From Gillisia hiemivivida (GTDB lineage Bacteria; Bacteroidota; Bacteroidia; Flavobacteriales; Flavobacteriaceae): 64,000 bases of DNA. Location of the stretch: the NCBI RefSeq assembly GCF_007997295.1, contig NZ_VORY01000003.1, forward strand, positions 186,001 through 250,000, read 5' to 3'. This document shows, one piece after another, positions 2,844-57,898 of this stretch (positions within the stretch are counted from its first letter, which is position 1; each line of letters begins with the position of its first letter). A model generated the notes under the pieces. It saw nothing but the letters and a program-made list of their open reading frames with translations. It searched no databases and was not told where the DNA came from. The translations under genes and the position numbers were made by a program.

Positions 2844-5800
2844 TCAATTCTTTTTTTCTTCCAGACTTTTCATTTTTTCAATTCGGTGGCCGGTAGCCAG
2901 ATTTCCTTCGGAAAATCGCGGATCTGTGATGTAAGCCTCTTTCTTCATTTTGCTCACTTCAATACTAAAAAAGTCGAATTCTTCGGTGACCTTTCCTAAT
3001 AGTGCATAAACTCCACTGCCTCTAAATGCGTATTTTTCTGCGATAGGAGGGAAGAGAATGGTATCAAAAAAGTAACCTTCTCGATCTATAAAAGTTCCAA
3101 AATTCATTGGTTTTCCCTTTGCCGTTCTAGTGTTTTTCACCGTTACCAGATATCCGTAAATCAAAATTTCCTTATTTAGAAACCCTGCCAGATCCTTTTG
3201 TCCATAATCGGTTTGAGGAGACTCCTGTAGCAAATCAAAATGACTACATAATGGAAATCCCAAGAGTTCTATTTGCTCAAAAGACTCTTCTTGTAGAGTA
3301 GTATGTAATTCTGGCAATGTGAATTTTTTATGCTTCGGAGTAAAAAGAGGTACCTGATGTGGCTTCTTGGGTTTCTTGTTTAGTTTAAAATGAGCTTCCC
3401 ATAAGAGTTGATATTTGTCTATGCCTGTAAACCTAAATGCATTAATCCTAATTAGTATGCTTAATTGCTCTATGCTAATGGGAACACGATCTATAAAATT
3501 TTCTAAGGATTTAAATTTTCCTTTAAAATTCCTGTTTTCCAGAATACGTTGTACAGCGCGATGCTCGACTTCTTTTAAATTTCCAAAACCCAAATAAATG
3601 GTCGTTCCTTTTATGGTATTATGGTAATCCCCTTCATTGATACACGGTGGCTCTACAGTAGCTCCACTCATCTTGGCCTCATGCACATACATTTCTGTAG
3701 AGTAAAAACCGCCTCCGTTATTAAGAGTTGCTACCATATATTCTAATGGGAAATAGGCTTTTAAGAACAAACTCTGATAACTTTCTACGGCATAGCTGGC
3801 AGAATGCCCTTTTGCAAAGGCGTATCCTGCAAAACTTTTTATTTGATCCCAGACTTCAGAAATGGTCGTTTCTGCGATCTTTTTCTCACGACAGTTGGAG
3901 ATGAACTTTTCTTCTACCCGCTGAAATTCTTCTCGGGAGCGATATTTCCCACTCATTCCACGGCGCAAAACATCTGCCTCTGCAAGGCTGAGGCCGGCAA
4001 AAAAATGCGCTACTTTAATTACATCTTCTTGATACACCATAATGCCATAAGTGTCCGGCATTATTTTGGCAAGTTCGGGATGGGCATTGTCTCGTCTTTC
4101 TGGGTATCTGTGGCGTAAGATATATTCTCGCATCATTCCGCTCCTTGCCACCCCAGGGCGAATAATGGAACTGGCAGCCACCAAACCTAAATAGGTGTCG
4201 GTTTGTAATTTTCTAAGCAACATACGCATTGCAGGGGATTCCACATAAAAGCAGCCAATACAAGAACCTTCTTTAATAAGATTATTTATTTTAGAATCTT
4301 CTTTAAAAACTGCTACATCATGAATGTCGAATGCAGCTGCATCTGGCTGATTTTCAGCAATGATGTATAAAGAATCCCGAATCTTCCCTAATCCTCTTTG
4401 TGCGAGAATATCAAATTTATAAAGTCCCACATCTTCAGAGATCACCATATCAAACTGCACACAAGGAAATCCTTTTGGCGGAAGGTCTAAAGCAGAAAAA
4501 GCTGTAAGTGGTTTGTTAGAAATTAGAATTCCTCCTGCATGGATACTTCGGTAATTAGGCATGCCCTGAATTAAATCGCCATATTTAAGGACTATTTTAT
4601 GAATGTCATCTTGTTTGTTATTTGGAAGACTTCCTTTACAGAGCTTGTCTATGTCTTCTTTTGGAAGTCCAAAGACTTTCCCTAATTCTCTAATTACGGC
4701 TCTAAATTGGAAGGTGTTATAAGTGGCAAGCAGGGCCGTATGCTTGAATTCTTCAAAAATAAACCTAGTGATATCTTCCCGATCGTTCCATGAAAAATCT
4801 ATATCGAAATCTGGCGGACTGGTCCTGAATTCATTTATAAATCGTTCAAAATAAAGATCTAATTCTATAGGATCTACCTCGGTGATCTGCAGTAGATAGG
4901 CCACAATACTATTGGCGCCGCTTCCTCTGCCTACATAGAAATATCCTTTTTCCCGGGCATATTGGCAAATGCGCCAGTTAATAAGAAAATAGGAGATAAA
5001 GTTCATTTTCTTAATGACCTTTAATTCTGTGATCATTCTTTTAAGAACTTCCTCTTTAGCTTCAGGATAGCGAAGAAGGAGTCCTTTTTCGCAAAGTTCT
5101 TTTAGGAATTTTTCATCATTAGAAGCGCTTTCCCCAAAAACCTGCTGATTCTGAGGCTTTCTGTTTTCAGAAAAATCGAAATGGATCTTACAGTCTGCCA
5201 GAAGCTCTTCGGTGTTTTTGAGAATAAAAGGGAACTCTTCAAAATGCTCTTTTATCTTCTCAAGAGGACTCATTTGCTCTTCTTTTCCAGCCTGTTCTTC
5301 AGGAGAGAGTTTGCTTAGAAGTGTATTATTATCAATGGCGCGCAACAATCTATGCGCATTAAAATCTCGTTTATTTCTGAAGGTGACAGGTTGTAATATT
5401 ACCAGTTTGGTGGTGAGTTCCTTTAATTTTGAAAACTTCAATTTTCGCAATTCAGCAATACTTACCCCAATAAATTCATTGGCGGCAAATTGACTTATTT
5501 CTGAAGCTAATATTTTTTCAAAAGGATAAATAATAAAAGCATTTTCGAAAAAAGGTGCTTTTTCCGGGATGACTATTTTTTGCTGAAGATGTTTAGAAAG
5601 AAAATCATTTAATTCCTGAAAACCCTCATTGTTCTTTGCGATGCCTATAAATTGTTGCTGTACTCCATTCCTGAAATCTATTCCCAGAATTGGGGTGATA
5701 TCATATTCTTTGGCAATTCTCACAAAATTTAGGCTGGCAGAAGTGTTATTAATATCTGTAAGCACTAAAGTTTTTACATTATTTTTTTGTGCCAGTTCCA

Positions 5801-50219: not shown

Positions 50220-50287
50220 ATTTGACGGGAATTGCTAGCGGAGTTTACACTGCTTTAGCATTTTTTAAGGGTAGCAATCAGTCAAAT
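50220..50287 (-). ncRNA. Candidate structured 5' UTR (possible riboswitch) of metK
   Basis: In the metK mRNA sense, ATTTGAC (50281-50287) pairs with GTCAAAT (50220-50226), then after an internal loop ATTGCTA (50272-50278) pairs with TAGCAAT (50231-50237). The enclosed loop holds a second TGCTA (competing partner), TGCTAAAGCA and GTGTAAACTCCGC. The structure ends 31 bases before ATG. No S-box core (GGCAACC) is present. A regulatory role is inferred from position upstream of a SAM-synthesis gene. Confidence 0.45.
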
Positions 50288-50354
50288 CATTCCCTGTAAT
50301 CGTAAGGCGCAAATGTATAAAATTAGATTGAATGCCGTCATCCTTTAACTTCTT

Positions 50355-50483
50355 TTTTGATATTTGTTGAGCGCTCCGCTTCGCCAAAAGGCCTGCCCGA
50401 GAGTTCAGGCGGGCTCACGGCAGGCTTTCGCGACTCGCTTCCCGAGAAAAAGTTCGGGAGAGCTTAAACAAACGCTCAATCCT
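50355..50483. repeat. GC-rich extragenic palindromic element
   Basis: Outer arms TTGAGCG (about 50362) and CGCTCAA (about 50475) enclose GCCTGCCCGA / TCAGGCGGGC and TCCCGA / TCGGGA hairpins. The GCCTGCCCGA...TCAGGCGGGC pair also occurs in repeat copy 1 at 5.9 kb. The element is much richer in G+C than its surroundings. It lies between metK and the methionine attenuator region. Confidence 0.6.
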
Positions 50484-50565
50484 TAGCGCAAAAAAATAAA
50501 TCACGCTCTGAGCATTGACTTTTAGTGGTTTAAGTGAGTTTTATAAAAAATAATTGAGATTAAAT

Positions 50566-50597
50566 TTGGTTTATAAAAAATTCTGTCGTTAAATTTG
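50566..50597 (+). promoter_or_regulatory. Promoter of the metY operon leader
   Basis: TTG (50566-50568), 21 bases, TAAATTTG (50590-50597). The spacer end TTCTGTCGT is nearly the same as in the second leader promoter (TTCTGTCCT at 55713). The leader start codon follows 18 bases after the -7 box, leaving a very short 5' UTR. Confidence 0.7.
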
Positions 50598-50615
50598 TAT
50601 CTAGATTTTAACAAA

Positions 50616-50684
50616 ATGAATCAAGTAATGTGTAATATGTGTATGATGATGTTGGGGCAACCCGCAGCGTTCACTATTGCATAA
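50616..50684 (+). CDS. Methionine/cysteine-rich leader peptide A1
   Basis: A 22-codon frame that opens MNQVMCNMCMMML and ends AAFTIA. Six of the first 12 residues are Met and two are Cys, far above chance. The next feature is an intrinsic terminator, and codons 17-18 contain GCAGCG (50664-50669), which is complementary to CGCTGC in its 5' arm. This is the layout of ribosome-mediated attenuation: a ribosome stalled at Met codons would leave GCAGCG free to block the terminator. The peptide equals its counterpart at 55747 in length. Confidence 0.75.
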   Translation: MNQVMCNMCMMMLGQPAAFTIA

Positions 50685-50705
50685 AACTTAACTTATAAGA
50701 ATTGC

Positions 50706-50738
50706 AAAAGCCGCTGCCAACCGCAGCGGCTTTTTTTG
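50706..50738 (+). terminator. Attenuator terminator A1
   Basis: GCCGCTGC (50710-50717) and GCAGCGGC (50723-50730) with loop CAACC, flanked by AAAA and seven T. It is a strong terminator, 22 bases after the leader A1 stop and before the structural genes, so it must be conditionally read through. Confidence 0.85.
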
Positions 50739-50803
50739 TTTATATAATTCAAAACAAATAATAATTAAAAAGGCTTGAAAGATTTCAGCCCTAACAAATT
50801 AAA

Positions 50804-50902
50804 ATGAAAACAACTTTCTCAATAATTACCATAATGTGCTGTAAGATGCAAATGTGTATGATGTACGCAACAAGCCGCTATTGCCAAAAATTCAGGATGT
50901 AA
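50804..50902 (+). CDS. Methionine/cysteine-rich leader peptide A2
   Basis: A 32-codon frame starting MKTTFSIITIMCCKMQMCMM. It contains seven Met and four Cys, with nine Met/Cys within codons 11-20. The end Y-C-Q-K-F-R-M aligns with N-Y-Q-K-F in the counterpart leader at 55891. TTGCCA (50881-50886) in codons 26-28 can pair with TGGCAA in the 5' arm of the next terminator. It is the second of two leaders on the metY operon transcript. Confidence 0.72.
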   Translation: MKTTFSIITIMCCKMQMCMMYATSRYCQKFRM

Positions 50903-50927
50903 ATTAGTTTTATATAGTTCAATTCCT

Positions 50928-50963
50928 AAATCCCTCTGGCAAACTTGCCAGAGGGATTTTTTT
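50928..50963 (+). terminator. Attenuator terminator A2
   Basis: A 14-bp perfect stem (AAATCCCTCTGGCA with its complement, 50946-50959), loop AACT, followed by T. It lies 58 bases before metY and must be bypassed for metY expression. Confidence 0.88.
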
Positions 50964-51021
50964 ATTTCAGCAAAATTAAGATCATTAGAATAATTCAAAA
51001 TAAACCTTTAAAACAAAAATT

Positions 51022-52314
51022 ATGAGCACACAACAATTCGCAACAAACGCACTGCACGCAGGTCACGATGTAACTATCAACGGAGGAACCAGAGCTGTTC
51101 CATTGTATCAAACCACCTCCTATGTTTTTAAAAATTCAGATCATGCGGCTAACCTATTTTCGTTGGCAGAGCCGGGATTTATTTACACCAGAATTAACAA
51201 TCCAACCAACGATATTCTCGAGCAACGCTTAGCCACGTTAGAGGGTGGAATTGGAGCGGTGGTAACGGCCTCTGGAACTGCAGCTATCAATACTACTTTA
51301 CTTACTTTGTTAAGATCTGGAGACCATATAGTAGCATCTAGTAGTCTTTATGGAGGAACTTACAATCTTCTAAATGTAACCTTACCAAGATTTGGGATCA
51401 CTACCACTTTTGTAGACCCATCTGATCCAGAAAATTTTCAAAAAGCGGCCAAAGAGAATACTAGAGTGTTTTTTATAGAATCTCTTGGTAATCCCAAGTT
51501 AGATGTTCTGGATATCAAAGCTATTTCTACCTATGCTAAAGAGTTTAAAGTTCCTTTAATAGTAGATAATACAGTTGCAACACCTTCACTTTTAAATCCA
51601 ATCCAGCACGGGGCAGATATTGTAATTCATTCCCTTACTAAATATATCAACGGGAACGGGACTTCTCTTGGAGGTGTAATTATTGATGCCGGAAAATTTG
51701 ATTGGGCCAATGGGAAATTTCCTGAATTTACAGAACCTTCCGCAGGATACCATGGTCTTGTTTATCACGATGCTTTAAAGGAAGCAGCTTTTATTGCAAA
51801 AGTAAGAATAGAAGGATTGCGAGATCATGGTGCGGTATTAAGTCCTTTCAATGCCTTCCAGATCATTCAGGGATTGGAAACCTTAGAGATTAGGATTAAA
51901 AAACACAGCGAAAATGCTTTGGCTTTGGCAAAATGGCTACAGGAGCAAGACCAGGTGAAATGGGTGAATTATCCTGGACTTGAAAATAGTGAATATTATG
52001 AACTTGCCCAGCAGTATCTGCCAAAGGGGCAAAGTGGGGTTGTGACTTTTGGAGTGGAAGGCGGTTTTGATTCGGCAAAAGTTATTGCAGATGAAACAAC
52101 AATTTTCTCACTGCTGGCTAATATTGGAGATACTAAATCCTTAATAATTCACCCCGCCAGTACAACTCATCAGCAACTAAGTGACGAACAACAGGAGGCT
52201 ACGGGAGTTACCAAAGATCTCATTAGACTTTCTGTAGGATTGGAGGATCTGGAAGATCTTAAATCTGACTTAAAACAAGCGTTTTCCAAGATTGGCAAAA
52301 AGGTTTTAAAATAA
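51022..52314 (+). CDS. metY: O-acetylhomoserine sulfhydrylase (aminocarboxypropyltransferase)
   Basis: A 430-residue PLP enzyme of the Cys/Met metabolism family. Lys207 in VIHSLTKYINGNG is the Schiff-base residue, and VVTASGTAAINTTLLTLL, LYGGTYNLLNVTLPRFGI and VDNTVATPSLLNPIQHGAD are typical. The 430-residue length and the SLTKYINGNG motif favour MetY over cystathionine gamma-synthase. It makes homocysteine from O-acetylhomoserine and sulfide. It is first structural gene after the tandem attenuators and is followed by metX, whose product is its substrate. Confidence 0.93.
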   Translation: MSTQQFATNALHAGHDVTINGGTRAVPLYQTTSYVFKNSDHAANLFSLAEPGFIYTRINNPTNDILEQRLATLEGGIGAVVTASGTAAINTTLLTLLRSGDHIVASSSLYGGTYNLLNVTLPRFGITTTFVDPSDPENFQKAAKENTRVFFIESLGNPKLDVLDIKAISTYAKEFKVPLIVDNTVATPSLLNPIQHGADIVIHSLTKYINGNGTSLGGVIIDAGKFDWANGKFPEFTEPSAGYHGLVYHDALKEAAFIAKVRIEGLRDHGAVLSPFNAFQIIQGLETLEIRIKKHSENALALAKWLQEQDQVKWVNYPGLENSEYYELAQQYLPKGQSGVVTFGVEGGFDSAKVIADETTIFSLLANIGDTKSLIIHPASTTHQQLSDEQQEATGVTKDLIRLSVGLEDLEDLKSDLKQAFSKIGKKVLK

Positions 52315-52408: not shown

Positions 52409-53422
52409 ATGCTTCATAAGATATACATTTCAGAATTTAAGAATAATGCAGGAACCATTCAGGAGCTCCAGTTGACATATCAAACTTTTGGTAGGGAACT
52501 AGGAACTGCGCCAATAGTTCTGGTGAATCATGCACTCACTGGAAATTCAGCAGTAACAGGAAAAAATGGTTGGTGGAAAGAAGTAATTGGGGTTGATAAA
52601 AGCATCGATCTTCTAGAGTATACCGTTCTGGCATTTAATAATCCCGGGAATGGTTTTGATGGAGAGGAGTCTCAGCTAATATTAAATTATAAAGAGTTTA
52701 CGCTTAGGGATATAGCTAAGATTTATTCTGAAGCCTTAAAACAATTAGGGATCTCCAAGATATTTGCAGGAATTGGTGGTTCTATAGGTGGGGCTTTGTT
52801 ATGGGAACAGGCAGTTTTAGATCCAGATCTTTTTGAACATATAATTCCAGTAGCAGCAGATTATAAATCTTCACAATGGGTAAAGGCACAGTGTAAGGTG
52901 CAGGACCAGATCTTAAATAATTCTGTAAATCCGGTTGCAGATGCCAGAATGCATGCAATGACAATTTATAGAAGTCCGGAATCTTTCATCTCGAAATTCA
53001 ATTCAACCCAAAACCATAAAAATGGAACCGGAAATATTGAAGGCTGGTTGGAGCACCATGGTAAAAAACTAGAAAATAGATATCAATTGGCAGCTTACAA
53101 ACTAATGAATCATTTGCTTTCTACTTCAGATATAAGTTTGGGTAGTGGAGATCATTTAAGTGCGGCATCAAAGATAACTGGAGATATTCATATAATTACA
53201 ATTAATTCTGATGGCTTGTTTACAGCCAATGAGAATTGGGATACTTATGTAAATCTGTCTCTTATCAAAGAAAATATAAGTATTGATGAAATTAGATCTA
53301 TACATGGGCATGATGCTTTTCTAATTGAGAATTCTCAAGTAGCATCATTTTTAAATCCAATATTCAACACTAGTAACAAACAAAATGAAAAAAATAAACA
53401 TAGTACTCTTCGGAGTAGGTAA
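52409..53422 (+). CDS. metX: Homoserine O-acetyltransferase (alpha/beta hydrolase fold)
   Basis: A 337-residue enzyme that acetylates homoserine. The nucleophile is Ser125 in GIGGSIGGALLWEQ (most MetX have GGSMGG), with NHALTGNSAV near 40-49 for the oxyanion site, Asp in NSDGLFT near 277 and His in HGHDAFL near 308. It is shorter than many MetX. The stop overlaps the start of the first homoserine dehydrogenase gene by 38 bases, indicating tight coupling. Confidence 0.9.
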   Translation: MLHKIYISEFKNNAGTIQELQLTYQTFGRELGTAPIVLVNHALTGNSAVTGKNGWWKEVIGVDKSIDLLEYTVLAFNNPGNGFDGEESQLILNYKEFTLRDIAKIYSEALKQLGISKIFAGIGGSIGGALLWEQAVLDPDLFEHIIPVAADYKSSQWVKAQCKVQDQILNNSVNPVADARMHAMTIYRSPESFISKFNSTQNHKNGTGNIEGWLEHHGKKLENRYQLAAYKLMNHLLSTSDISLGSGDHLSAASKITGDIHIITINSDGLFTANENWDTYVNLSLIKENISIDEIRSIHGHDAFLIENSQVASFLNPIFNTSNKQNEKNKHSTLRSR

Positions 53423-54464
53423 TGTAGGGAGTGCCTTAATAAATCAGATATTGGAAGCCCGATCCAAAATTTTAAATTCTTCTCAGTTAGAAATTAATAT
53501 CGCGGTTTTGGTAAATTCTAAAATTGCCTTTTATAATAATAATACCATAAACAACTCTTGGGAGGCAGATTTTAAAACCTATGGATATCCTTATAAATTG
53601 TCTCATATTTTAAATCATGTTAAAAAGGAGAAACTCACCAATTTAATCGCAGTAGATGCTACTGCAAGTGAAGATTTCGTTAAAAATTATAAGGAGCTCA
53701 TAAGAAATGGATTTCATATAGTTGCCGCCAATAAAACAGCTAATACGTTGTCTGATAAATTCTATAAGGAGTTAAGAATTGAATTAAAAAAGCACAATAA
53801 ACAATTCCTTTATGAAACCAATGTGGGAGCAGGACTACCGGTAATTAAAACAGTGCAAGATCTACATTTAGCGGGCGAAGAGATAACTAAAATAAGAGGG
53901 ATCTTCTCAGGGTCCTTAAGTTATATTTTTAATACATTTTCTAACAATAACAAATCATTTTCTGAAGTTTTGGAGGATGCTAGAACTAGAGGACTTACAG
54001 AGCCAGACCCCAGAATAGATCTTTCAGGGAAAGATGTGGGGAGAAAATTGTTGATCCTTGCCAGAGAAATAAATATCCTTAAAGAACTTTCTGAAGTTAG
54101 AATAGAAAGCCTGGTTCCTAATCATCTCAATGGAAAGAGTTCAATTTCTCATTTTATCGAGAATCAACAAGAACTAAACTTAAATTTCGAAGAACGGAGA
54201 TCAAAATTAAAGTCGGATGAGGTTTTAAGGCATATTGGAGAGTTAGACGTAGCCAGCGGAGAATTAGAAGTGAAATTGGTAACAGAAAAAAGAAGTTCTC
54301 CCTTTGGAAGTTTACAGGAAGCCGATGCTTCTTTTGAAATATATACGAAGTCTTATGGGAATAGGCCAATTGTTATTCAAGGCGCTGGAGCAGGCGCAGC
54401 AGTGACTTCAAGAGGAGTATTGTCTGATCTTTTAAAGATCTCAGAAAAACTTGAATGTATATAA
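53385..54464 (+). CDS. hom: Homoserine dehydrogenase, copy 1
   Basis: A 359-residue NAD(P)-dependent enzyme reducing aspartate semialdehyde to homoserine. The Rossmann motif LFGVGNVGSALINQI is at the N-terminus; AANKTANTLSDKF near 120-132 and YETNVGAGLPVIKT are substrate-region motifs; IRGIFSGSLSYIFNTF and TEPDPRIDLSGKDV follow. It resembles the C-terminal half of ThrA, without the aspartokinase and without an extra ACT domain. It is clearly paralogous to the gene at 56170-57246. It overlaps metX and is followed by metZ with 10 bases of gap. Confidence 0.9.
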   Translation: MKKINIVLFGVGNVGSALINQILEARSKILNSSQLEINIAVLVNSKIAFYNNNTINNSWEADFKTYGYPYKLSHILNHVKKEKLTNLIAVDATASEDFVKNYKELIRNGFHIVAANKTANTLSDKFYKELRIELKKHNKQFLYETNVGAGLPVIKTVQDLHLAGEEITKIRGIFSGSLSYIFNTFSNNNKSFSEVLEDARTRGLTEPDPRIDLSGKDVGRKLLILAREINILKELSEVRIESLVPNHLNGKSSISHFIENQQELNLNFEERRSKLKSDEVLRHIGELDVASGELEVKLVTEKRSSPFGSLQEADASFEIYTKSYGNRPIVIQGAGAGAAVTSRGVLSDLLKISEKLECI

Positions 54465-54474
54465 TTCACTGAAA

Positions 54475-55653
54475 ATGGAAAATAAACATATAGAAACTAC
54501 GGCTATCAGGACACAAGCAGCTAGAACCCAATATTTAGAACATTCTGTTCCTTTATACTTAACATCAAGTTATGTTTTCGAAGATTCAGAAGATATGCGC
54601 GCGTCTTTTGCTGAAGAGAAAGAACGAAATATTTATAGCAGATATTCCAATCCGAATACCTCTGAGTTTATAGATAAAATGGTGATAATGGAACAAGCAG
54701 AAGCTGGATTTGCTTTTGCTTCAGGAATGGCAGCGGTGTTTTCTAGTTTGGCTGCTTTGTTAAATAGTGGTGACCATATTGTTGCTTGTAAATCCTTATT
54801 TGGATCTACACACAGCTTGTTTTCTCAATATTTTCCTAAATGGAATATTTCACATAGTTATTTCAAGATAGATGAACTGGACAAGATTGAAAACCTTATA
54901 AAACCTGAGACTAAAATTTTATTTGCGGAATCGCCAACAAACCCTGGAGTAGATATTCTAGATCTAGAAAAACTATGTGAGATTGCCAGAAAGCATAACC
55001 TTATCTTGATCATAGATAATTGCTTTGCAACCCCATATCTTCAAAATCCAATAGTATTTGGGGCAGATCTTGTAATTCACTCTGCAACAAAATTAATAGA
55101 TGGTCAAGGCAGAGTCTTAGGTGGGGTTACTGTGGGAAGAGCAGACCTAATTAGGGAAATATATTTGTTCTCAAGGAATACCGGCCCATCAATGTCTCCT
55201 TTCAATGCTTGGATATTGTCTAAAAGTTTGGAAACATTACCAGTGCGTCTAGAAAAACATTGCGAAAATGCGCTTAAGGTTGCTGAGTTCCTTGAAAATA
55301 ATTCTTCCGTAACAAATGTGAAATACCCATTTTTAAAGTCGCATCCCCAATATGAAATTGCCAAAAAGCAAATGAAACTAGGGGGAAATGTAATTGCTTT
55401 TGAGATTAAAAAAGGACTCGATGCCGGACGAAAATTTATAGATGCTATCAAATTATGCTCGATATCGGCAAATTTAGGAGATACCAGAAGCATATTGACT
55501 CATCCGGCTTCTACCACACACAGTAAATTATTAAAATCAGATCGACTGGAATCTGGAATTACAGATGGACTCATTCGTATTTCTGTAGGATTAGAACATG
55601 TGGATGATATAATAAAAGATCTGGAACAAGCTTTAACTGAAGCAAAATATTGA
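54475..55653 (+). CDS. metZ: Cys/Met-metabolism PLP enzyme, likely O-succinylhomoserine/O-acetylhomoserine sulfhydrylase
   Basis: 392 residues from ATG 54475; an ATG eight codons upstream overlaps hom and adds non-homologous residues. The PLP Lys206 is in LVIHSATKLIDGQGRVLGG, a motif typical of MetZ. FAESPTNPGVDILDLEKLCE and SHPASTTHS-like THPASTTHSKL near the end match the family. It could alternatively act as cystathionine gamma-synthase (MetB). With MetY in the same operon, it suggests two routes or different sulfur donors. It is the last gene of the metY-metX-hom-metZ unit. Confidence 0.85.
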   Translation: MENKHIETTAIRTQAARTQYLEHSVPLYLTSSYVFEDSEDMRASFAEEKERNIYSRYSNPNTSEFIDKMVIMEQAEAGFAFASGMAAVFSSLAALLNSGDHIVACKSLFGSTHSLFSQYFPKWNISHSYFKIDELDKIENLIKPETKILFAESPTNPGVDILDLEKLCEIARKHNLILIIDNCFATPYLQNPIVFGADLVIHSATKLIDGQGRVLGGVTVGRADLIREIYLFSRNTGPSMSPFNAWILSKSLETLPVRLEKHCENALKVAEFLENNSSVTNVKYPFLKSHPQYEIAKKQMKLGGNVIAFEIKKGLDAGRKFIDAIKLCSISANLGDTRSILTHPASTTHSKLLKSDRLESGITDGLIRISVGLEHVDDIIKDLEQALTEAKY

Positions 55654-55746: not shown

Positions 55747-55815
55747 ATGAATAAAGTGATTCGTAATATGTATAAGTTAATGTGGGAAACCCCTACAGCA
55801 GCTGCTTTTGCGTAA
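55747..55815 (+). CDS. Leader peptide B1
   Basis: A 22-codon frame, the same length as A1, starting MNKVIRNMYKLMW and ending TAAAFA. Positions shared with A1 include M-N-x-V, N-M, Met12, Pro16, Ala18 and the final Ala. Only three Met remain and no Cys, so sensing may be weaker or shifted. GCAGC-T-GC (55798-55805) in codons 18-20 can pair with most of the next terminator's 5' arm. Confidence 0.68.
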   Translation: MNKVIRNMYKLMWETPTAAAFA

Positions 55816-55837
55816 AACTTAAGATATAAGAATTACC

Positions 55838-55866
55838 AAAGCCGCTGCCACCGCAGCGGCTTTTTT
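55838..55866 (+). terminator. Attenuator terminator B1
   Basis: GCCGCTGC (55841-55848) and GCAGCGGC (55853-55860), loop CACC, followed by six T. The stem is identical to that of terminator A1. Confidence 0.85.
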
Positions 55867-55890
55867 GTTACAATAAATTGAAATTAGAGA

Positions 55891-55998
55891 ATGGAACTTA
55901 AGAGGAAAATAAGTAAACCAAATATCATGTGTATTAGTAAACATTGCAATATTTATATGCGCATGTATCGCACCACTTTCAATTATCAGAAATTTTAG
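55891..55998 (+). CDS. Leader peptide B2
   Basis: A 35-codon frame; an internal ATG at 55927 would give 23 codons and align better with A2. From there the order is MCISKHCNIYMRMYR, and it ends N-Y-Q-K-F. The C-terminal Y-x-T-T-x-x-Y-Q-K-F matches A2. TTATCAGA (55983-55990) can pair over eight bases (one G-U) with TCTGGTAA in the following terminator. Confidence 0.62.
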   Translation: MELKRKISKPNIMCISKHCNIYMRMYRTTFNYQKF

Positions 55999-56026
55999 AT
56001 TTTAAACTAGTTTATAGTTTAATTCT

Positions 56027-56064
56027 AAAGATCCCTCTGGTAATTTTTCCAAAGGGATTTTTTC
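56027..56064 (+). terminator. Attenuator terminator B2
   Basis: ATCCCTCTGG (56031-56040) pairs with CCAAAGGGAT (56049-56058) with one mismatch and an 8-base loop, followed by T. It is weaker than A2 and lies about 106 bases before the hom copy 2 start. Confidence 0.75.
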
Positions 56065-56169
56065 TTTCTAAAACTTAAGTTAAAGTATTCAGTTTAGAAA
56101 GAAAATTTTAAAATTAAAGTCACACTTGGCTGAGTTTTTGAAAACAGTCAAAACCTATTAAATGGAATT

Positions 56170-57246
56170 ATGAAAAAGATTCATATAATACTCTTCGGAG
56201 TCGGTAATGTTGGAAGCGCCTTGATCAATCAGATCTTGGAAGCTAGAGAACAACTTAAAAATAAAAGCAAACTAGAAATTAATATACCGGTAATAGTAAA
56301 CTCTTCTTCGGCATTTTATGAAGAGAAATGTGTGCGTCCAGCTTGGAGAACCGATTTTAAATATTTTGGTGTTCCTTATACAGTAGATACTGTTTTAAAA
56401 TACATAAAAAAAGAAGCTTATAAGAACGTGATCATTGTAGATGCAACAGCTAGTAAAGAGTTTGTGCAAAATTATTCTACTTTCATAAAGAACGGATATG
56501 ATATTGTGGCGTCTAATAAATCGGCTAACACGTTATCCAATGTTTTCTATAATAATTTAAGGAAACAACTCAAGAAAAATAAAACGGAGTTTTTATATGA
56601 AACTAACGTGGGTGCGGGATTACCAATAATACAAACCCTGCAAAGGCTGCATGCTTCAGGTGAAAAAGTAACCAAGGTAAGAGGAGTGTTTTCTGGATCG
56701 CTAAGTTATATTTTCAATCAATTTTCGCAACAAAATAAAATGTTCGATTCTTTGTTGGCGGAAGCTGGAATAAAAGGACTTACAGAGAGAGATCCTAGAA
56801 TAGACCTTTCTGGAAATGATGTAGCTGAAAAATTGTTAGTCTTGGCAAGGGAATTACACATGAAAAAAGAACTTTCAGATGTGAACATCGAAAGTTTAGT
56901 GCCAAAGCATTTAAATGGACGAAGTTCAGTTTCACATTTTAAAGATAACCTGAGCGATCTCAATTTAGAATTCGATGACCTGAAGGATGAATTAAAGCCG
57001 GATGAGGTGTTAAGACATATTGGAGAGCTGGATGTGATCACGGGTAGCCTAGAAGTGAAATTGGTAAAGGAAAAAACAAATACAGCTTTTGGAAGTCTAA
57101 AGAATGCGGAAGCTTCTTTTGAGATCTACACAGAATCTCATGGGCAATTTCCTATAGTAATTCAAGGGGCTGCTGCAGGAACTGGCGTAGCCGCCAGAGG
57201 AATTCTCGCGGATTTAACTAAATTAGCCGAAAAATACAATAGATGA
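56170..57246 (+). CDS. hom: Homoserine dehydrogenase, copy 2
   Basis: A 358-residue paralogue of the gene at 53385: the same LFGVGNVGSALINQILEAR start, ASNKSANTLSNVF, YETNVGAGLPIIQT, VRGVFSGSLSYIFNQF and TERDPRIDLSGNDV. Catalytic Lys and Asp positions look intact in both copies, so both should be active. This copy lies directly behind leaders B1 and B2 and overlaps an OsmC gene by ATGA, so its supply of homoserine can be tuned separately. Confidence 0.9.
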   Translation: MKKIHIILFGVGNVGSALINQILEAREQLKNKSKLEINIPVIVNSSSAFYEEKCVRPAWRTDFKYFGVPYTVDTVLKYIKKEAYKNVIIVDATASKEFVQNYSTFIKNGYDIVASNKSANTLSNVFYNNLRKQLKKNKTEFLYETNVGAGLPIIQTLQRLHASGEKVTKVRGVFSGSLSYIFNQFSQQNKMFDSLLAEAGIKGLTERDPRIDLSGNDVAEKLLVLARELHMKKELSDVNIESLVPKHLNGRSSVSHFKDNLSDLNLEFDDLKDELKPDEVLRHIGELDVITGSLEVKLVKEKTNTAFGSLKNAEASFEIYTESHGQFPIVIQGAAAGTGVAARGILADLTKLAEKYNR

Positions 57247-57715: not shown

Positions 57716-57747
57716 CAAAACTTAAGTTCTTAATTTTATTTAAAAAC

Positions 57748-57848
57748 GTTATCAAGAAAGGTGGAGGGATAAGACCCTATGAGACCTTGGCAACCCTCCT
57801 TTTGGAGAAGGTGCTACATTCTACCGCGCTCTGGCGTGGATAGATAAC
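57748..57848 (+). ncRNA. SAM-I (S-box) riboswitch upstream of metH
   Basis: Closing helix GTTATC (57748-57753) and GATAAC (57843-57848). The core follows the S-box consensus: ATCAAGAAAGGTGGAGGGA, then ACCCTATGA, CCTTGGCAACC, a CTCC/GGAG hairpin, AAGGTGCTACATTCTACC and a last hairpin. It binds SAM and lowers downstream expression. No classical terminator follows the aptamer, so control may be translational or through another structure in the 50 bases before ATG. Confidence 0.92.
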
Positions 57849-57898
57849 AAAAAGAATTCTTTTCACTCCTCTTTTTTGATACATATATACTTTATAAT

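Follow-up and report, generated by a model that had tools for sequence, protein, structure and literature searches.

The metY-metX-hom-metZ operon of Gillisia hiemivivida is preceded by two short reading frames rich in methionine and cysteine codons, each followed by an intrinsic terminator, and this raises the question of how the operon is regulated; its genes, by family match, make the very amino acids read by these codons. Riboswitches, T-boxes and repressors are known regulators of methionine genes. From the comparative analysis of the window (the whole stretch of 64,000 nucleotides studied here) and of related loci, we consider it very probable that the operon is controlled by two ribosome-mediated transcription attenuators of the trp/his type, placed in series and reading Met and Cys. 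A trp/his-type mechanism had been put forward in a sequence-only reading of this DNA, and it is now supported by the frames, the terminators, the covarying antiterminators and the register between them.

The leader lies on the forward strand, and direct reading bore out the arrangement proposed in the sequence-only reading, namely one promoter and two Met/Cys-rich frames, each with its terminator, before metY-metX-hom-metZ. The promoter, as read from the sequence, consists of TTTG (50565-50568), a spacer of 21 nt and the −7 box TAAATTTG (50590-50597); TAnnTTTG is the flavobacterial sigma-A −7 box, located at −12 to −5 (PMC9723704, in part), which places the transcription start of the window near 50602. 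The first frame, A1 (50616-50684), has 22 codons followed by TAA and encodes MNQVMCNMCMMMLGQPAAFTIA, with six Met and two Cys within its first 12 codons. Its regulatory codons, assigned by the footprint folding described below, are codons 5-12 (M C N M C M M M, 50628-50651). The antiterminator strand of A1, GCAGCG (50664-50669), is a copy of the terminator 3' arm and has CGCTGC (50712-50717) as its partner, within an intrinsic terminator of 12 bp followed by a T tract (50706-50734); this pairing had already been pointed out, with GCAGCG at the same coordinates, and we found it to covary. The second frame, A2 (50804-50902; 32 codons and TAA, MKTTFSIITIMCCKMQMCMMYATSRYCQKFRM), contains seven Met and four Cys. 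Its antiterminator strand, TTGCCA (50881-50886), faces TGGCAA (50937-50942) in a terminator of 14 bp followed by a T tract (50928-50959). Three elements were absent from the sequence-only reading: this A2 antiterminator, the predicted ribosome-free fold that hides the A1 antiterminator, and the diverged repeat of the tandem leader, at 55747-56062, in front of a hom paralogue.

The genes behind the leader, all in the forward orientation, are metY (51022-52314; O-acetylhomoserine/O-acetylserine sulfhydrylase, TIGR01326, 631 bits for a cut-off of 495), a metX-like homoserine O-acyltransferase gene (52409-53422; TIGR01392, E 4e-50), hom (53385-54464; homoserine dehydrogenase, E 7e-110) and a gene for a metZ-like sulfhydrylase (54478-55653; NF006003, 501 bits for a cut-off of 522, E 2e-150); the best family matches of the last three are clear although they fall under the curated cut-offs. 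The metK gene lies upstream of the leader in the opposite, divergent orientation. By eye, the stretch 50370-50480 of the metK-metY interval is G+C-rich and repeat-like.

Chance as the origin of the tandem units is excluded. A unit was defined as a frame 12-60 codons long that contains five or more Met or Cys codons and ends 5-60 nt before an intrinsic terminator, with terminator loops allowed up to 14 (a limit of 9 missed the second units of L016, L033 and L121). The 600 bases before metY hold two such units, and none of 3000 dinucleotide shuffles gave any. The background rate, which was drawn from the metY loci examined and not from a whole genome, was nine units (4.3/Mb) once the sense strand of the metY upstream regions had been set aside, which left 2.08 Mb of strand-bases; two of the nine are A2 copies in front of the hom paralogue, and another is an A2 region read on its antisense strand. 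With the same criteria, at least one unit was found at 49 of 188 metY loci (about 187 kb of upstream DNA), i.e., tandem units at 39 loci (one species being counted twice) and a single unit at ten more. Among these ten, a second unit is visible by eye at L033, L194 and L213, and a doubtful one at L253; L028 ends at a contig edge, L027 has an A2-like unit only, L036 is uncertain, and A1 stands alone at L211, L233 and L234. The 188 loci comprise 38 named flavobacterial records, 13 further Gillisia loci, 136 loci taken one per genus and the window. They are not all independent, because the named and the one-per-genus sets have at least four species in common (L016/L196, L020/L130, L046/L226 and L049/L251). 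Loci L009-L014, from the same species as other Gillisia loci, were dropped before the counts, the partial metY genes of G049 and G073 were left out, and 59 of 199 genomes of the family had no MetY at E 1e-150.

The tandem pair occurs at all 14 Gillisia loci examined, and the same arrangement is found in Salinimicrobium, Salegentibacter, Christiangramia and some Flavobacterium; none of 36 more distant metY loci outside the flavobacterial set has a unit. The loss of Met-rich frames in relatives had been named beforehand as an outcome that would count against attenuation; when the comparison was run, both frames turned out to be conserved. Selection on the frame at the codon level appears modest, with a synonymous share of 0.251 for an expected 0.193 (31 leaders). 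A covariance model, R1, was built from 45 A1 units, so that part of its matches arise by construction; matches under 52 bits were taken as background terminators and all those of at least 60 bits were counted. In the family sample, 89 of 199 genomes gave something at E 0.001, mostly at 38-52 bits, and 16 reached 60 bits. In the order sample, 26 of 296 genomes did so, 21 of them in one genus (g111, probably Flavobacterium from the likeness of its leaders) and one in another family, and in the phylum sample 14 of 296, all in the same family; samples of more than 40 genomes were searched with stricter filters, by which weak matches are lost. Across 16 Gillisia genomes, R1 retrieved 14 metY units (110-128 bits) and seven units ahead of the hom paralogue (83-100 bits), of which six were checked at the locus and that of G013 by position; the next match scores 46.5 bits.

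Each frame ends in a mimic of its terminator 3' arm, and mimic and arms covary. In A1, the codons for a frequent ...SAA... or ...SAE... carry GCAGCG or GCAGAG; in most loci, this copy of the 3' arm sits 21 nt upstream of where the stop codon ends. A terminator with CCTCTGC in place of CCGCTGC goes with GCAGAGG in place of GCAGCG in the leader (L025, L136, L211 and L222), L234 being an exception. As an unrestricted search for antiterminators chose unlikely strands (e.g., in L234 and L263, and for A2 in L117 and L039), the register was later restricted. The A1 alignment holds 45 of 47 units (out are one of the duplicates L196 and L016, and L036, which has no clear antiterminator). That of A2 holds 35 of 41, without L017, L021, L027, L039, L044 and L196, where the stop or the antiterminator is placed differently or the locus is a duplicate. 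For the A1 antiterminator (44 distinct sequences), 95.1% of 264 cells are paired and 17 are changed on both sides, a number reached by none of 500 shuffles; for that of A2, 94.8% of 210 cells are paired and 11 are changed on both sides, again as high in none of 500 shuffles. One A2 pair passes through G-C, G-U, A-U and U-G states, and the replacement of YCQ by YYQ in some Christiangramia/Gramella loci turns an A2 G-U pair into A-U. The covariation score was likewise as high in 0/500 shuffles, for A1 and A2 alike. Two of the five measures are weaker: the number of pairs with a double change (equalled in 13/500 shuffles for A1, and not unusual for A2, at 154/500) and the number of further pair types (37/500 for A1 and 6/500 for A2). 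Sliding the partner by 1-3 columns lowered the pairing from 95% to 24-55% for A1 and to 6-51% for A2. The A1 terminator itself has 28 cells with a double change, so that the A1 mimic and both terminator arms change together. In L117, the A2 antiterminator is damaged.

The position of the antiterminator strand relative to the Met and Cys codons was evaluated with a footprint model, in which the ribosome masked 17 nt on the 5' side and 11 nt on the 3' side of the A-site codon and the RNA was cut before the terminator 3' arm. For A1 of the window, the predicted pairing probability of the antiterminator is 0.91-0.99 for A-site codons 2-12 (0.99 at codons 5-12), drops to 0.55 at codon 13 and is 0 from codon 14 on, the Met run ending at codon 12. 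This register is nearly fixed: at 44 of the 45 A1 loci, the last open codon lies 0-2 codons beyond the final Met/Cys codon (an offset of 0 in 17 loci, 1 in 25 and 2 in two), and at the remaining one the offset is −2. With a downstream edge of 9 nt, the offset is 1 or 2 in 44 loci, and with 13 nt it is −1 to 1 in 44. A2 is looser, with offsets from −4 to +3 that are negative in 17 of 38 loci, and among the 40 A2 loci folded no open state was obtained in L039 and L044. With the ribosome at the stop codon, the antiterminator is closed in 44/45 A1 and 39/40 A2 loci. Met/Cys codons fall at open and closed positions in the proportion 263/7 in A1 and 316/89 in A2, and other codons in the proportion 257/478 and 412/387, respectively; because the loci are related, these pooled counts are used without Fisher significance. 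In the model, then, a stalled ribosome frees the antiterminator strand and a ribosome at the stop codon hides it, sharply for A1 and more loosely for A2.

In the ribosome-free A1 RNA of the window, the antiterminator has a pairing probability of 0.01, because the antiterminator strand, together with the bases that follow it, is predicted to pair with the Met-codon stretch. A closed state of the ribosome-free RNA is predicted in only 28 of 45 A1 and 10 of 40 A2 loci, so that this default state is not conserved. At equilibrium, the full terminator, once completed, prevails whatever the ribosome state (P 0.88-0.96); the switch would therefore need a kinetic competition during RNA synthesis. In the trp system, the contest between antiterminator and terminator is likewise decided while the RNA is being made.

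A Met/Cys-rich frame near the 5' end and an intrinsic terminator before the structural gene, as expected for a ribosome-mediated attenuator, are both present, and from them we propose the following sequence of events. When charged Met-tRNA and Cys-tRNA are plentiful, the ribosome would translate each frame up to its stop codon and cover the antiterminator strand, and the terminator would form. When charged Met-tRNA or Cys-tRNA is short, the ribosome would stall on the Met/Cys codons, leaving the antiterminator strand free to capture the 5' arm of the terminator during its synthesis, and the polymerase would read on. That the two stages work in series, as was suggested beforehand, is consistent with the distribution of the promoter motif: TAnnTTTG occurs at most 60 nt from the A1 ATG in 39 of 45 loci, at 18-21 nt in 35, compared with 4.7% of mononucleotide shuffles, and in none of 38 A1-to-A2 and 40 A2-to-metY intervals. 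As the sole promoter motif lies before A1 and none between the stages, the polymerase most likely must pass both terminators. Since read-through would be needed twice, leakage would be obtained by multiplying the read-throughs of the two stages, and the response would be steeper.

Do the two stages read the same signal? The sequence-only reading had proposed an AND-like gate of two different signals, with A1 reading Met only and A2 reading both Met and Cys. This idea has in its favor that A2 is the richer in Cys codons (3.62 per frame, versus 1.82 in A1) and that the A1 run of the window closes with three Met codons. However, Cys codons are present in A1 at 40 of 45 loci (two or more at 34) and in A2 at 40 of 40; the Met:Cys ratios of A1 and A2 are similar (4.18 and 6.50 Met per frame, respectively, not counting the start codon); and 263 of the 270 Met/Cys codons in A1 fall where the antiterminator is predicted to be open. 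Leaving out the start codon, Met and Cys together account for 28% of the codons in A1 (45 loci) and 35% in A2 (40 loci). As Cys codons occur in both frames, both look like sensors of Met or Cys, and, the same codon types being present in both stages, there is no evidence for a two-signal AND gate. We thus regard such a gate as unlikely; judged by the codons, two stages acting on one signal fit better. A reason for reading both amino acids is offered by MetY itself, which belongs to a homocysteine/cysteine-forming family (TIGR01326).

Three further explanations would do without sensing of tRNA charging. The translated peptides might respond as nascent peptides, or to a metal such as copper or mercury, given that soft metals could, on general chemical grounds, be bound by clusters like MCNMCMMM and that the peptide is conserved within Gillisia. 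The genes downstream, however, serve Met and Cys biosynthesis, and the order and spacing of Met and Cys differ between genera, whereas their position relative to the A1 antiterminator hardly varies; we consider this explanation very improbable. Even less credit is due to the proposal that the leader is a SAM, T-box or other ligand-binding RNA in which the frames are accidental. SAM-I is indeed the usual regulator of metY in the family (107 of 136 loci), but no Rfam family reached its gathering score in 50302-51021, the T-box model had no match in the window at that score, and a search of 50500-51030 at E up to 10 yielded weak matches only, with no SAM riboswitch and no T-box (they include His_leader at 27 bits and Thr_leader at 20 bits, for cut-offs of 49 and 55); the conservation of the frames and of their register also speaks against it. 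As for terminators that would merely insulate metY from upstream transcription, behind decayed or accidental frames, intergenic terminators are common and the hom-paralogue copy has lost most of its Met codons. Yet the shuffles and the low background rate given above, together with the covariation of the antiterminators, make this the least credible of the explanations, and as the upstream metK is divergent, there is no co-directional neighbor from which metY would need insulation. Serial attenuation by Met/Cys-reading ribosomes thus remains our preferred reading.

The tandem leader occurs a second time in the window, on the same strand, before a second hom copy (56170-57246; family match and alignment) that is 62.5% identical to the first. 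It comprises A1' (55747-55863, MNKVIRNMYKLMWETPTAAAFA, terminator at 55838-55863; R1, 96 bits) and A2' (55891-56062, terminator at 56027-56062; R2, 69 bits), and it has diverged, in that the Met codons are mostly lost and the terminators kept. A1' is nevertheless conserved in the six Gillisia loci compared, as MxxVIxxMYxLMWxxxTAAAFA (Met 8 and Met 12 are retained), and its last open codon in the footprint folding is codon 14, two beyond Met 12; the A2' frame is poorly conserved and unrecognisable in L117. The leader of the hom copy may be a weaker sensor or on its way out. Directly before this hom, at 56126-56169 (starting with TTGGCTGAGTTTTTGAAAA), lies a candidate further hairpin, which is similar by eye in six Gillisia loci with few substitutions.

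Units are also found before genes of sulfur assimilation. In L283, an A1 unit with three Cys precedes a run of cysE, cysK, cobA/cysG, cysJ, cysI and cysG-type genes (NCBIfam matches, some under the curated cut-offs), which is followed by A1-A2-metY, and the order of the units alone is the same in L284. In L285 and L297, an A1-type leader stands before a gene for a TonB-dependent receptor of 948 aa (Pfam), 3.2-3.4 kb ahead of A2-metY; that this receptor imports a sulfur compound is a guess. By unit positions alone, A1 and A2 are split likewise in L296 and L298. In L288 (G214, from another family of the order), an A1-like unit lies immediately before metX.

How do these leaders relate to the SAM-I riboswitch? 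In the one-per-genus set (136 metY), SAM-I occurs 79-408 nt upstream of metY in 107 loci and attenuator units in 13 (12 found by script, and L191 assigned by eye), and the two together upstream of metY in none; the 16 loci with neither include L250, which has a doubtful unit, several that look by eye like metK-metY operons, and L131, which ends at a contig edge and whose genome has A1 on another contig (L270). The exclusion extends to the named set (units in 23 of 38, SAM-I in 14, both in none) and to the 13 further Gillisia loci (no SAM-I before metY), 36 loci with units in all. SAM-I does occur past the metY start, in most cases right behind the gene, at six attenuator loci of the 136 (L132, L136, L183, L233, L234 and L253) and also at L191, L192 and L264. 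In G138 (L289, oriented positions 2885-3337), A1, SAM-I (Rfam, 73 bits) and metX follow one another in series, and no metY of this genome passed the MetY search; the arrangement is a possible intermediate between the two sensors. On a MetY tree built with a quick method, the attenuator label requires 12 changes, at least two of them forced by well-supported branches, and it is distributed nearly at random (mean of 13.6 changes on shuffling, 31/500 shuffles being as low); many exchanges, losses or transfer would fit these changes alike and cannot be told apart.

The window itself has SAM-II before metK (50245-50301, reverse strand) and SAM-I before metH (57746-57850, forward strand), so that, with the tandem leader, three kinds of candidate Met sensor lie in one neighborhood. 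Elsewhere, a frame poor in Met/Cys (like MPEIFKITNKSQMNKSLQMNKMFNVASIRVCVC) stands before an A2-like terminator, ahead of SAM-I and metX, in L136, L285, L290 and L295. In L292 and L293, A1/A2-like units are followed by short hom-like fragments (175 and 168 aa), which look like the remains of a hom copy, and then by SAM-I and a metH-like gene.

Taking these loci together, we lean towards the view that the leaders form a conserved modular Met/Cys system, in which two stages reading the same signal multiply, and the modules are swapped with SAM-I, placed before cys genes, or set in series with SAM-I before metX. If so, the readout of one and the same pathway would be SAM in some cases and charged Met/Cys-tRNA in others, and, as orthologous genes are governed by a SAM sensor in most genera and by a putative tRNA-charging sensor elsewhere, the benefit of each readout becomes comparable. 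Two attenuators in series with one signal would also offer a natural test of why a cell squares a response. Translation initiation in this group relies on signals other than Shine-Dalgarno (PMC9723704, in part), so that the coupling of translation to transcription becomes testable there.

The open literature searched yielded no description of a ribosome attenuator reading Met codons, nor, as had been supposed, of a Met-codon or Met/Cys tandem attenuator in Bacteroidetes, most subscription papers lying outside its scope, as do two comparative papers on classic attenuation cited in PMC4833913 (Lyubetsky 2007, Lopatovskaya et al.). For Flavobacteriaceae, the single pointer was a remark that there are signs of attenuation by leader peptides upstream of amino-acid operons, in an article whose main text does not contain the word methionine (PMC9723704, in part). 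Frames with Cys codons precede sulfur genes in the actinobacterial cys operons (PMC1262725) and, as uORFC-8-2 with its two conserved Cys codons, the cysS gene of Rhodobacterales (PMC8632094); according to the former, the mycobacterial cys leaders have no obvious terminators, and no conserved RNA structures precede Met operons. PMC2965389 records a second tandem terminator in the rimP leader of several Gammaproteobacteria, as well as the exchange of sensing systems, T-box versus leader peptide, before the same genes, so that exchange as such is not new; its cases concern neither Met/Cys nor Bacteroidetes (a word absent from the main text), and the exchange described here is with a SAM riboswitch. 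SAM-I (RF00162) and SAM-II (RF01726) control genes of the same pathway and, unlike the Met/Cys leaders, bind SAM directly. The metE gene of Bacillus clausii is likewise preceded by two serial terminators, but these belong to tandem SAM and B12 riboswitches, i.e., ligand-binding RNAs with two different ligands (PMC3641672, in part). The Salmonella mgtCBR leader, treated in the same source, resembles the present one in having two short frames, one of which reads amino-acid limitation, and in both cases two attenuators follow one promoter. The mgtCBR leader senses ATP and proline and has stem-loops described there as unlike intrinsic terminators, whereas both Met/Cys stages have intrinsic terminators and, judged by their codons only, appear to read the same amino acids and not a different signal each. 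With the enterobacterial trp, his and thr attenuators (PMC3641672, in part), the Met/Cys leader shares the amino-acid-rich frame, the terminator, the competing antiterminator and the presumed control by charged tRNA; unlike them, it would read both Met and Cys, is tandem, carries its antiterminator strand within the last codons of the frame, and shows no detectable sequence kinship, the best Rfam leader matches lying far under their cut-offs.
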